Source: Nitrospira sp.
Lineage (GTDB): Bacteria > Nitrospirota > Nitrospiria > Nitrospirales > Nitrospiraceae
NCBI GenBank assembly: GCA_022226955.1
Contig: CP092079.1
Coordinates: 3,520,282-3,584,281 of the forward strand
Length of the DNA: 64,000 nt
Direction: 5' to 3'
Shown here in pieces: positions 16,959-22,245 of the stretch (its first letter is position 1; every line of letters begins with the position of its first letter). The notes beneath the pieces are model-generated. The model did not search any database, had not been told where the DNA came from, and saw only the letters and a list, made by a program, of their open reading frames with translations. The position numbers and the translations under genes are program-made.

Positions 16959-17912
16959 ATGCTACCGTCCCCGCCCATGTTTGCCCTATTTCGAATGGCG
17001 TTCAAAATGACGTGCGCGGCCGGATGCGGCCTCGCGCTGCTCGTGCCGTCGCCGACCCCGGCGGCCTCCCTGCCTCCCTTGAACGTCGTCGTTACAATTC
17101 CGGTTCTGAAGGATCTCGCGCAACAAGTAGGCGGCCCATACGTACATGTCACGTCTCTCCTGAGCGGCTATGAGAACGAACATACCTATGCGCCTAAACC
17201 CAGCGACTTGATCGCAGTCAGAAAAGCTCGGGTCCTTTTTGAAGTCGGCATTGGACTGGAAATCTGGGTGTCGGCCCTAGTGAAGAATGCCGGAAGCCCT
17301 TCCTTGGTGGTGATCACGACCTCCGACGGCATTGGATTGATCCGCGATCATTCGGGTCAGGAAGTCGCCCAGCCTGGAGACCATCAGCATGCCAACGACG
17401 GCAATCCGCATGTATGGATGGATCCCGAGAGCGTTGCCACGATGCTCCGACACATTACAGAGACGCTTATTAAGCTCGACCCCGCGCATGCCAAGGAGTT
17501 TCGCGTCAACCAAGCCGCATATTTGCGCCAGCTGGACCAACTTCGAAACGAGTTATCTGAACGTGTGAAACGGCTGCCCGATCGGCGCTTTGTTGCCCAC
17601 CATCCGGCCTGGCCCTACCTGGCAAGACGGTTTGGTTTCGACATCGTGGCCACCATCCAAGCGCAATCCGGCACAGAACCCTCGGCCCTTCAGATTCAAT
17701 CGCTCGTCGCAAAAATCAAAAACGACCGGATCAAAGTCATCGTCTCCGAAATCCAGTTGAGCCAGCGCATTCCCGAGCTCTTGGCAAAGGAAGCCAAAGC
17801 CCGCGTGATTGTCCTCACCACACTTCCTGGCGGACTCCCCGGTACCGAGACCTACCTCGACATGCTTCGCTATAATGTGCTCCAATTGGCCAACGCGCTT
17901 GAGGCGCCATAA
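16959..17912 (+). CDS. znuA: Zinc/manganese ABC transporter, periplasmic binding protein
   Basis: This cluster A-I metal-binding protein (317 residues) captures Zn2+ or Mn2+ in the periplasm. After a signal peptide (about residues 7-36) the expected ligand sites are visible: His in YENEHTYAP, His in GNPHVWMDPESV, His in FVAHHPAWPYLARRFG, and an acidic residue in VIVSEIQLS. A short His-rich loop (DHQHANDGNPH) precedes the second ligand. Start is uncertain among ATGs at 16959, 16977 and 16995; none has a clear Shine-Dalgarno. It opens the operon with ATPase and permease genes. Metal specificity is inferred. Confidence 0.88.
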   Translation: MLPSPPMFALFRMAFKMTCAAGCGLALLVPSPTPAASLPPLNVVVTIPVLKDLAQQVGGPYVHVTSLLSGYENEHTYAPKPSDLIAVRKARVLFEVGIGLEIWVSALVKNAGSPSLVVITTSDGIGLIRDHSGQEVAQPGDHQHANDGNPHVWMDPESVATMLRHITETLIKLDPAHAKEFRVNQAAYLRQLDQLRNELSERVKRLPDRRFVAHHPAWPYLARRFGFDIVATIQAQSGTEPSALQIQSLVAKIKNDRIKVIVSEIQLSQRIPELLAKEAKARVIVLTTLPGGLPGTETYLDMLRYNVLQLANALEAP

Positions 17913-17957: not shown

Positions 17958-18749
17958 GTGCCTGAATCATCCACCTCGATCATTCAATTCGACCATGCGA
18001 CCTTTGGCTTTCCTGGCGTCGTCGCGCTTCAGGATATCTCTCTGTCCATCGGCATGGGAGAATTTATCGGTGTCATCGGCCCCAACGGCTCCGGCAAAAC
18101 GACGCTCTGCCGTGCGGTCTTAGGCCTCATGGCCCCGCTGACCGGACATATGCGCATCTTCGATTGCGCCTGTGGTGAACTGCGCTGCTACCACCGAGCC
18201 CAGATCGGTTACCTCCCTCAAAAAGGCGTCGTGGATCGGAATTTCCCGGTCACCGTCCTCGAAACCGTCATGATGGGCCGCTACGGCACCTTGGGCCTCT
18301 TCAAACGAACCACCAAGAAAGACCAGGCCATCGCCCTCGACGCCCTCGCCCACGTCGGCATGGACGCGCATCGCGATACGGCGCTCGGCCATTTGTCCGG
18401 CGGCCAGCAACAACGGGTGTTCATTGCCCGAGCCCTGGCGCAACAGCCGAAAGTGCTCCTGCTCGATGAACCGACCACCGGCCTAGATATCACCACGCAG
18501 CACAGCGTCATCGAATTAGTCGAACATCTGCACAAAGAACTCGGCCTGACAGTCTTGCTGATCACGCACGACATCAACATCATCCGCTCGCGCGTCGACC
18601 GATTAGTCCTCCTGAAAACCCGCCTCTTCGCCGCAGGACCGCCGGCAGATGTGTTGAAGCCCGAGATCCTCCGCCAAGTCTACGGGAAGGACCTGGTCAC
18701 GGCCGATAAGGATCTTGTGATCGTTGAAGACTATCATCACCACCATTGA
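17958..18749 (+). CDS. znuC: Zinc/manganese ABC transporter, ATP-binding protein
   Basis: The 263-residue ATPase powers metal import. Walker A is GPNGSGKTT, the Q-loop is in YLPQKGVVDRNFPVTV, the signature is LSGGQQQRVFIARALA, and Walker B is VLLLDEPTTGLD, followed by H-loop LLITHD. It starts with GTG at 17958 after AAGGAG. The protein ends in a natural DYHHHH tail, which could bind metal in the cytoplasm. Its permease partner starts only at 21421, after an intervening lipoprotein gene. Confidence 0.92.
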   Translation: MPESSTSIIQFDHATFGFPGVVALQDISLSIGMGEFIGVIGPNGSGKTTLCRAVLGLMAPLTGHMRIFDCACGELRCYHRAQIGYLPQKGVVDRNFPVTVLETVMMGRYGTLGLFKRTTKKDQAIALDALAHVGMDAHRDTALGHLSGGQQQRVFIARALAQQPKVLLLDEPTTGLDITTQHSVIELVEHLHKELGLTVLLITHDINIIRSRVDRLVLLKTRLFAAGPPADVLKPEILRQVYGKDLVTADKDLVIVEDYHHHH

Positions 18750-18834
18750 TATCCCTCTTCTGTAGGGGCGCACTACGTATTGAGTACGGTCAGTTTGGAA
18801 GCCTAGAATGTTGCCCTCATTCAGGAGGGCCATC

Positions 18835-21417
18835 ATGCACTTCTCTGTAAAGCACGTCCTTGCAATCGTGTTATCTGGGTTGCCTCTTCTTTCTTTTGCT
18901 GGATGTGGCGGTAGCGGAAGTGGTGGTGGCAGTGAAGGAACCGTCCCGGTCGCGGCAATGAATCAAACAATCGTCTCAGGTACAGTGCAGGCCCCTGGTG
19001 GACAAGTCGCTCTTTTCAAAAAGCCAAGCTTTGGAGACTGGTTCGAATCAAACGCCTACGCGGCATTGACCGGCCTCGCCAATGTTCCAGATAACACGAT
19101 CGTGCAACTCGCCAGGCTCAATGTAAACGCCTCAAGCTTTTCCGTTCTTTCAACGACAACAACATCCGGAGGACGGTATTCGTTCAATCTGACAGCCCTC
19201 GAACTACAGCCGGCAAATGATCTGGTCGTTCGCGTTGCCGGCCCTAGCGGAAGAGAAATGCGCGCGTTTGTGGTTGGAACTGTCGCAGACATCAGTCCGA
19301 TCTCCGAGGCTGGCTACCAACTCGCCATTCAATCCCTCAATGGCAGCCCGTTAAGCAATCTGACTCTTCAGGAAGTGGGCGACATCAGCGGAGCCGTTGC
19401 CCTAATCGCGATGCTTCAAGACATTGGAAACGTGACATCCATAACCCAAGCCGTTGGGCTGGTGACAAACGCCGTGGGTGCCAATGCACAGGTAACCGGG
19501 TTCATTGCCGCTGCGGCGGCAAATGGCCAAACCGCCGTTGGTACTGGTGATATTGGTAACTTCTACCCATTTGAGGCAGGAAGTACTTGACGATATCTGG
19601 GGACGCTATCTTTTTCTGGGTCTTCAACCACAAGCTATGAAACCAGTATGACAGTTTCTGGCCAAGGGGCGGCTCCACAGCTTGGCGTCATGAGCACCAT
19701 TTTCTCTGAGACTAATGCTCAAGGAGAGGATCGGAGCGAGAGAAACTATGAGGTGAAGGAACTCTCAGGGATCATGTCGTATGGAGATGATAACCCTAGT
19801 AACACACTATTCCGCCAGTTGACCCCCTATCGCTCTGCTCATTTCCCGCTAACGCCTGGAGTAACAACTCCACTGGTTCAGCGTTCTGGTTTAGATTGGG
19901 GAATCGACGAGGATGGTGACGGGAACCATGAATCATTTAGCATTACAGTAACTCAACGAGTGATTGGTGCGGAAAGCGTTACTGTGACCGCTGGTACATT
20001 TTCGACTGCTCTCCGGGTAGAACACGAGGCTCGATTCCTGGTGAGTTTTACGGCGGGAGGGACGGCCACCATGGTTCAGATCGACACGGTGTGGTGCGTA
20101 GCATCAATCGGAAGAGTACGGGAGGTCTTGCAAACTCGGGTGGAGAATGGCCCCATACTCGGCTCTCTGACTGAAGAACTAACTTCGTACCTTGTCAATG
20201 GTAATGGTGGTGGTCTTAGAATCCAACTTGCTCCCGCATCCACATCCGTCACGCTTGGCGGAACAGTGCAATTGACCGCACAAGTTTATGATTATACAAA
20301 CCGTCCAATAAGTGATTACCCATTCGCATGGTCCACTAGCAACGGGAACATTGTGAGTGTGAACGGAACGGGTCTGGTTACAGGAAATGGCTTAGGACAA
20401 GTCATGATTCAGGCACATATTGGTTCGCTAGTAAGCAATTCCGTTCCTATTACTGTGCAAGACGCTCGCATCATAATTCAGGAAACAAATGATCTGATCT
20501 ATGACAGCTCCCGTCAACGAATCTATGCTTCAGTTCCAAGCCTTGCCAATACAAACCCCGATAGGATTGTGATTCTTGATCCGCAAACTGGATCCATCAC
20601 ACAATCAATCTTCGTCGGCGATAATCCTGACAAGCTAGCACTCTCTGACAACTATCAATATCTCTACGTGGCAGTCGCAGCCCCAGGGGCATCGGTTCGT
20701 CGTATCAACCTATTGAGCAACCAGGTAGACTTATCGTTTTCTGTAGGGGCTAATCTTGCGACTGGCTTGTTGAGAGTCGACGATATGAAGGTAATTCCTG
20801 GCGCTCCGCAATCTTTGGTTGTGGCTAGGATGGACATGGGTGTCAGTCCACGACATGCTGGCGTTGCTGTTTTTGACAACGGCGTGCAACGATCCGAGGT
20901 TGCTTTACGTCACGAATCTTCAAATCTCATCGAATTTGGTTCCACCCCCAACCGTCTCTACGGCGCTGATAGAGAGTCATCGGGAGATACACTTTCTCGA
21001 TTCAATATAACCGCATCGGGCGTGACAGTTCTGGATTCTGGCTGCTGTTCATTTAACGGTCAATTCGATAACGGATTTATCTTCTCGACGGACAGCGAGA
21101 TTATCGAGCCCGAGCTTAGGCGTGTTGCAGGATTTTTACCTGGGATCTCTTCAGATCAAACGCAAAATGATGACCTAATAAGACTAGCCCCACAAAGAGG
21201 ACATATTTACCTGCTCAAATCGCTGAATACAGGGCACCGCCTACTGGCTTTTGATCGTTCGACTCTGCAGAAGATTGGGTCGGCGGATCTAACTCCGCCC
21301 TTCATGAGTTTAGGCAGTCCACTTACAAGCTTCATTTTGTGGGGCCAAGACGGCTTGGCTTTTAGAGACGGTTTTAGTAGAACTGTCGTGCTGCTCCGAA
21401 CATCAATTCTTCAATAA
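18835..21417 (+). pseudogene. Surface lipoprotein with BIG2 and beta-propeller domains, interrupted by TGA
   Basis: Translation starts at 18835 (AGGAGG 6 bases upstream) with a lipoprotein signal and lipobox SFAGC. A single frame of 860 codons runs to TAA at 21417, broken only by TGA at 19588-19590. The break reads YPFEAGST-stop-RYLGTLSFSG, where Trp (TGG) would fit. Parts in order: Gly/Ser linker and a carboxypeptidase-regulatory-like strand region, a conserved domain around the stop, a bacterial Ig-like BIG2 domain (about codons 460-545, SVTLGGTVQLTAQV), and YNCE-like propeller repeats (RIVILDPQTGSI). It is AT-richer than znuC and znuB, which it separates, so it is probably inserted. Readthrough, recent mutation or sequence error are all possible. 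Confidence 0.8.
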
Positions 21418-21420
21418 ACA

Positions 21421-22245
21421 ATGCTTGATCTCTTTGCCTACGACTTCATGCAGCGTTCCCTCTTCGCCGCGGCGATGGTGGGAGGGTTGTGCTCGGTCAT
21501 CGGCGTGTTTGTGGTGCTGCGAGGATTGGCCTTTGTCGGGGCAGGGACCGCCCATGCGGCGTTTGCCGGCGTGGCCCTTGGCTATTTAATGGGCTGGCCG
21601 CCGCTGCTGCTCGCGATTATGTTCGGCTTAGCCACGGTCTGGATCACGGGATGGGTCGAAGAAAAAGGCCGGATGAAGCTGGATGTGTCGATCGGCATTC
21701 TCTACACCACCACCATGGCGCTGGCAATTCTCTTCATCGGACTGATGAAGACCTACAACGCCGAAGTTTACGGTTATCTGTTTGGGAGCGTGCTATCCGT
21801 CACAAGCGAGGAGTTGCGCACGATCGGAGGGCTCAGCATACTGGTGCTAGGCCTGATTCTACTCTTCTCGAAAGAGTTGTACTTCATCGCCTTCGACCAG
21901 GAAATGGCCGAAGCGTCCGGCGTGCCGGCCAGGAAAATATTTTTTCTTCTGCTCACACTCGTCGCACTCACCGTCGTCGTCTCACTGAAAACCGTCGGGG
22001 CAATCCTGGTGTTTGCCATGATCCTGATTCCCGCCTCCACCGCCTATCAGCTCACACATAGTCTGCGCACGCTGACGCTGTATTCGATCATGATCGGCGT
22101 TTCGACGTCAGTCACGGGCGTCCTGATCTCCGCAGTGTGGGATATTCCATCTGGCCCAGCCATTGTCTTGCTTGCGACCTCTATTTTCTTCCTCGCCATC
22201 CTGTTCTCGCCGAAGCGGGAACGGCGCCTGGCTCCAGCCGCCTAA
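21421..22245 (+). CDS. znuB: Zinc/manganese ABC transporter, permease
   Basis: The 274-residue ABC-3 family permease has about eight membrane segments and characteristic blocks: MQRSLFAAAMVGGLCSVIGV, VLRGLAFVGAGTAHAAFAGV, DVSIGILYTTTMALAIL and LKTVGAILVFAMILIPASTA. It belongs with znuA and znuC but begins 3 bases after the lipoprotein stop. The bases before its ATG (TCTTCAATAAACA) have no Shine-Dalgarno, so translation may depend on coupling with the preceding gene. Confidence 0.92.
   Translation: MLDLFAYDFMQRSLFAAAMVGGLCSVIGVFVVLRGLAFVGAGTAHAAFAGVALGYLMGWPPLLLAIMFGLATVWITGWVEEKGRMKLDVSIGILYTTTMALAILFIGLMKTYNAEVYGYLFGSVLSVTSEELRTIGGLSILVLGLILLFSKELYFIAFDQEMAEASGVPARKIFFLLLTLVALTVVVSLKTVGAILVFAMILIPASTAYQLTHSLRTLTLYSIMIGVSTSVTGVLISAVWDIPSGPAIVLLATSIFFLAILFSPKRERRLAPAA

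Follow-up and report, generated by a model that had tools for sequence, protein, structure and literature searches.

Lipoprotein gene within the znu operon

The window (the whole stretch of DNA analysed, 64,000 nucleotides in length) is from a Nitrospira genome, termed G000, that consists of one contig of 3.64 Mb. It carries the genes of a ZnuABC zinc importer, and the three domain families PF01297, PF00005 and PF00950 are all matched far above cut-off (Table 1). A lipoprotein gene of 2.6 kb is situated between znuA/znuC and znuB. The initial annotation had described this position and the differing composition of the inserted gene, and the domain matches and the third-position GC (0.44–0.51 in the inserted gene vs. 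0.66–0.73 in znuA, znuC and znuB) agree with it. The znuB start is 3 nt past the stop codon of the lipoprotein gene. This is the single znuB match in the genome, and a search of the same genome for the ZIP family gave no match. No report of a Nitrospira znuC-znuB insertion locus was found among open-access papers.

Table 1. Features of the znu locus (positions in the window)
Feature	Position	Strand	Evidence or remark
znuA, zinc-binding periplasmic protein	16959..17912	+	PF01297 1.6e-71
znuC, ATPase; stop codon is TGA	17958..18749	+	ABC_tran (PF00005) 3.5e-31, ORF list
Promoter-like pair TTGAGT-18-TAGAAT of the inserted gene	18780..18809	+	scan, allele conservation
Possible hairpin GCCCTC-ATTCAG-GAGGGC, takes in the ribosome-binding site	18813..18830	+	fold
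Lipoprotein N-terminal part: putative signal peptide, Cys24, first domain	18835..19587	+	ordinary translation yields no more
Best identity break, window vs. G076	19430	.	0.815 before, 0.499 after
In-frame TGA, Trp in homologues	19588..19590	+	translation, codon and protein alignments
Middle domain, DUF3108-like / YmcC-LolB-like half barrel	19591..20217	+	weak DUF3108_like, Foldseek 3fzx
Big_2 Ig-like domain and beta-propeller, class A allele	20218..21414	+	Big_2 3e-09, propeller model
znuB, permease	21421..22245	+	ABC-3 (PF00950) 5.2e-74

Positions 18835–21417 form a single frame of 861 codons that ends in TAA and has one internal stop codon, a TGA (GST*RYLG). Translation thus bears out the earlier description of a frame broken by this TGA alone.

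The N-terminal region of the translated sequence displays a putative signal peptide and a lipobox candidate, i.e. Cys24 preceded by FAG, which is invariant among the four aligned rows. In a low-confidence model of the RSF48 relative (see below), the first domain consists of beta-strands followed by helices. Models of this relative are poor in the first half (pLDDT 58) and usable in the second half (pLDDT 79.6). The TGA is at a domain border, where the middle domain starts. Ordinary translation therefore gives the signal sequence and the first domain, and the middle domain is untranslated unless there is readthrough or a restart. The complete gene product appears to be a lipoprotein of the outer-surface type, with a presumed surface location.

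Relatives of single domains are found elsewhere. The window genome has a second, separate middle-domain protein (L007, G000:C1:309390-309932; 34%, in a 367-aa frame). Of the 79 genus genomes, 72 have matches to the middle domain, for the most part in shorter frames of their own. Two gammaproteobacterial MAGs (L172 and L173) have relatives of the N-terminal domain (36–38%); L173 resembles a lipoprotein, is 840 aa long and differs at the C-terminus.

A scan for promoter pairs is weak when taken alone (6 found vs. 4.0 expected). The sequence CCTAnAAT is invariant in all five znu-located alleles while its surroundings diverge, and a box starting with TTG, about 18 nt upstream, is kept in the same five. 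A similar promoter stretch is seen by eye in G231, a relative located elsewhere in its own genome. The fold of positions 18808–18840 gives −11.6 kcal/mol, which 10 of 200 shuffled sequences equal (z = −1.71); for a longer stretch z is −0.11. Other alleles look similar by eye at the hairpin positions.

At the 3′ end, the lipoprotein stop codon is 1–5 nt before the znuB start in all znu-located alleles. This spacing suggests that znuB translation may be coupled to the lipoprotein gene. A missing ribosome-binding site before znuB, considered as proof of coupling, is uninformative: an SD-like tetramer is found before 18 of 76 genus znuB genes and 17 of 74 window ORFs, the latter taken by first ATG.

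Distribution among Nitrospira genomes and mosaic structure

A znuB match is present in 78 genus genomes (window included), and G086 has none. Three of these genomes (G078, G089 and G028) are outside the locus count, which encompasses 76 znu loci in 75 genomes, again with the window; G074 has two. The second znuB of G074 (L102, G074:C106) is more divergent (82%); its contig is short, and the listed contamination of the genome is 6%. In 66 loci znuC and znuB are no more than about 36 nt apart, four have the lipoprotein gene, four have other cargo, and in two the sequence ends too soon for a call. The four carriers are the window genome G000, G017, G074 and G076. Uninterrupted frames of 857–866 codons are found in the three carriers other than the window. 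A fifth carrier, Nitrospira sp. RSF48, came from a separate search; its contig starts 96 nt before the lipoprotein gene and the znuB side alone is visible.

The presence of the gene is patchy, a point that was missed in the initial annotation. On the znuABC tree (77 rows, RSF48 being placed by znuB alone) it requires at least four changes, and the same number is imposed by the strongly supported branches. The carriers are hardly clustered on this tree, since 39 of 500 shuffles of the labels get by with no more changes. The nearest relatives of carriers G017 and G074 (G015 and G011, respectively) are without the gene. A search of a viral collection showed no relative among 83 pattern hits.

The four other-cargo loci have inserts of about 5.5, 6.9, 10.1 and 8.7 kb that are unrelated to the lipoprotein gene. 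Those of G016 (L120) and G023 (L128/L183), 5.5–6.9 kb, contain genes that by eye are HAD-like, kinase-like, AraC-like and DoxX-like, most of them in the opposite orientation; the two inserts are 88–95% alike in three pieces. A third cargo type of 8.7–10.1 kb, with RHS-like and transposase-like frames (by eye), is found in G012 (L125/L184) and G085 (L109/L185). Several cargoes (lipoprotein, HAD/kinase/AraC and RHS-type) are thus present at one core-gene junction, as in a transfer hotspot.

The lipoprotein gene is itself a mosaic, which the initial annotation had likewise missed. The closest relative of the window is G076, with 98% identity in znuB. DNA identity between the two drops inside the gene from about 0.82 to 0.50 and recovers at znuB. 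The maximum chi-square at this break is 186 vs. 18.8 or less in 500 permutations. The break is recombination-like and is about 160 nt before the TGA. The synonymous difference between G000 and G076 is 0.29–0.38 in znuA, znuC and znuB and 0.77–0.83 after the stop; therefore an older divergence has been imported or kept, and fast amino acid change alone does not account for it.

A tree of the C-terminal part (calculated without L173 and G088) displays class A (G000, G017 and RSF48) and class B (G076, G074 and G264), each with 100/100 support. This conflicts with the znuABC tree, where the branch that joins G000 and G076 has a support of 99. Class B extends to G264, which belongs to another genus and has its copy at another locus. 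The C-terminal halves thus form two classes that cross the species tree.

If the gene entered through recombination in the znu genes, remnants of the donor might persist in them. The flanking znu genes display some unusual divergence. In G074, the first 300 nt of znuB have an identity to G011 that is 0.075 below that of the middle of znuB (0 of 30 control pairs are as low). The last 230 nt of znuC in G000 are lower by at least 0.10 in 5 of 7 comparisons (G076: 1 of 7; control: 1 of 116), although one pair within the sister clade that lacks the insert reaches −0.126. No donor was identified for these flanks, and the signal is only partly beyond the controls.

An ancestral gene at znuC-znuB, lost many times without repeated gain, is an unlikely explanation of this distribution. 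It agrees with the same junction and orientation in all carriers, the short distance to znuB, and the conserved promoter. However, 66 of 76 loci are without any insert, including those of the closest relatives of two carriers, and very many clean losses would therefore be needed. The C-terminal classes conflict with the species tree regardless of the age of the gene, and the class B copy in another genus at another locus also argues against ancestral presence.

The in-frame TGA codon

The initial annotation had noted that Trp would fit at the TGA. The alignment position is W in 10 of 10 intact homologues, some from other genera and one gammaproteobacterial, and it is TGG in all three intact genus homologues aligned as codons. 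The alignment of ten leaves out G022 (a 521-aa open frame on a short contig), L172 (cut by a contig end) and the distant matches G018, G093, G103, G112, G121, G129 and G146. L172, a gammaproteobacterial homologue, likewise has W at this position. Because intact homologues carry Trp at the stop, the locus represents one gene with a lone nonsense change and not two genes.

The probability of finding no further stop in the 1824 nt after the TGA is 0.15 at 3% random substitution per site and 0.044 at 5%. The long frame with one stop is thus not a chance ORF, and relaxed divergence is limited to a few percent. The earlier statement that the rest of the gene has no decay holds as far as a second stop or frameshift is concerned, but not for amino acid changes: after the stop the window displays 101 unique residues vs. 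61 in G017 (p = 0.002), of which 42 vs. 18 are in the middle domain and 59 vs. 43 in the C-terminal part. Before the stop the numbers are 23 and 24, and the contrast between the two parts is not significant (p = 0.13 with G017; p = 0.44 with RSF48). Sites invariant in five relatives are changed in the window at 23 of 154 positions after the stop and 3 of 89 before it (p = 0.005), a contrast that is confounded because the set has a close sister for the pre-stop part and none for the post-stop part; the same count in G076 is 17 of 148 and 4 of 90. The surplus of unique residues downstream of the TGA is a hint that the nonsense change may not be entirely new.

The TGA is a matter of ordinary biology or of error. 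Two special decodings were considered and rejected. For selenocysteine, the search gave 0 of 1 tRNA-Sec candidates above the gathering score (best 40 vs. 47 bits). For a UGA = Trp code, TGA ends znuC and 16 of 51 ORFs of at least 150 aa (some perhaps spurious), and the tRNA-Trp is ordinary, with anticodon CCA and a 5-bp anticodon stem. An A at index 24 of this tRNA, considered as a Hirsh suppressor (the term is used in the available part of PMC13092985), was rejected as well, being found in 6 of 6 Nitrospira tRNA-Trp examined (L187–L192; G076 and G017 gave no match). In two order-level relatives the tRNA-Trp is one base longer and has C at index 24. With no tRNA-Sec over cut-off, an ordinary tRNA-Trp and TGA ending other genes, a recent mutation (or a base error) is likelier than recoding. 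The TGA is probably a recent nonsense mutation, the first of the causes listed in the initial annotation, and a base error is its main rival.

A base-calling or assembly error, with the gene intact, is possible but doubtful. Only one base separates the TGA from the Trp codon of the relatives, the 1824 nt that follow are free of a second stop or frameshift, and a search for a second genome of the window species found none. The assembly, however, is not generally error-ridden. Of the 26 G076 ORFs that have a match in the window, 21 run through unbroken; four were flagged, and these proved to be over-extended or antisense frames. Where the window is syntenic with G076, no further gene is truly broken, and general assembly decay was rejected. 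The excess of changes after the stop also speaks against an error.

Readthrough, the second cause that had been listed, is improbable; it would occur at a useful rate and yield a little full-length lipoprotein. The frame has no further stops, and the available part of PMC7918605 describes in-frame stops with downstream constraint as widespread in bacteria. Against this, no homologue has the stop, changes are in excess after it, and the suppressor search, which covered tRNA-Sec and tRNA-Trp, gave no tRNA-Sec over cut-off and a tRNA-Trp with the same sequence as in a relative whose znuC-znuB junction lacks the gene. Two separate genes, with the real start after the TGA, are highly improbable even though an ATG at 19648 opens a 589-aa frame, the stop coincides with a domain boundary and in the genus the middle domain often forms a separate frame: the initial annotation had named homologues split at a conserved stop as the refuting observation, but all ten intact homologues run through this point, and by eye the frame from 19648 has no signal peptide.

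Interpretation and relation to known systems

The position of the gene, its lone stop, the invariant Trp, the patchy presence and the mosaic structure are best accounted for by a promoter-bearing mosaic cassette that is turned over at znuC-znuB and has recently been truncated by a nonsense change in the window genome. This is regarded as the more probable explanation, by a modest degree. The modular lipoprotein (signal/Cys, N-domain, DUF3108-like, Ig-like and beta-propeller domains) would be a cassette with its own promoter, gained or lost repeatedly in Nitrospira at the same few bases between znuC and znuB. It would most likely have come and gone through homologous recombination, either within the conserved znu genes or within the conserved N-terminal part of the gene itself; the 3′ two thirds would have been exchanged between the two classes of allele. 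A single, apparently recent change at the invariant Trp codon of the window genome would leave the signal and first domain, with a presumed loss of function. This represents one genome only, and the presence of the gene could be old with many losses. In this nitrite-oxidising bacterium, a gene maintained intact in relatives has probably been lost recently.

A further proposal, plausible though tentative, is that the znuC-znuB gap is an operon-internal exchange site, where species would exchange a promoter-bearing surface-lipoprotein cassette, switchable in its C-terminal class, through recombination in the conserved zinc-uptake genes, with znuB coupled to it. The cassette stop so close to the znuB start may keep znuB translation coupled; the nonsense change in the window strain would then be a cost and may also lower znuB translation. 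With znuB matched only once in the genome and the ZIP family not at all, the locus offers a natural test of whether zinc uptake suffers when the gene preceding znuB is disrupted.

There is nothing unusual about the stop codon; it is the znuC-znuB locus that is of modest interest, as an exchange site. It illustrates cleanly how genes come and go repeatedly within a transporter operon and how a surface-type protein switches allele class, in a group of nitrifiers of which most are uncultured.

The domains of the lipoprotein resemble known folds. The C-terminal part is similar in fold to YncE/YVTN beta-propeller proteins (best PDB match to the propeller model, YncE chains, 2.0e-11), but here the propeller is one domain of a larger lipoprotein, and matching rows score 16.1–21 bits to the NCBIfam YncE family NF052280, which has a cut-off of 400. 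The middle domain is weakly similar to YmcC-like, LolB-like and DUF3108-like half barrels in profile and fold; the DUF3108_like match in relatives (0.00086) is below the curated cut-off, and the Foldseek match to 3fzx (3.1e-07) is that of a low-confidence model (pLDDT 58).

The bacterial in-frame stops under constraint in the available part of PMC7918605 are comparable to the TGA in being lone stops in otherwise open genes. Those stops, however, are common to orthologues, and the TGA is in one genome only.

Transfer hotspots, as described in the available part of PMC5635113, are similar to znuC-znuB in the variable cargo between one pair of core genes, in the absence of an integrase beside the lipoprotein gene, and in hints of exchange in the flanks. 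According to the same part of that paper, new genes rarely integrate within operons. The znuC-znuB site differs in that it is inside an operon and in that the homologous cargo is itself a mosaic.
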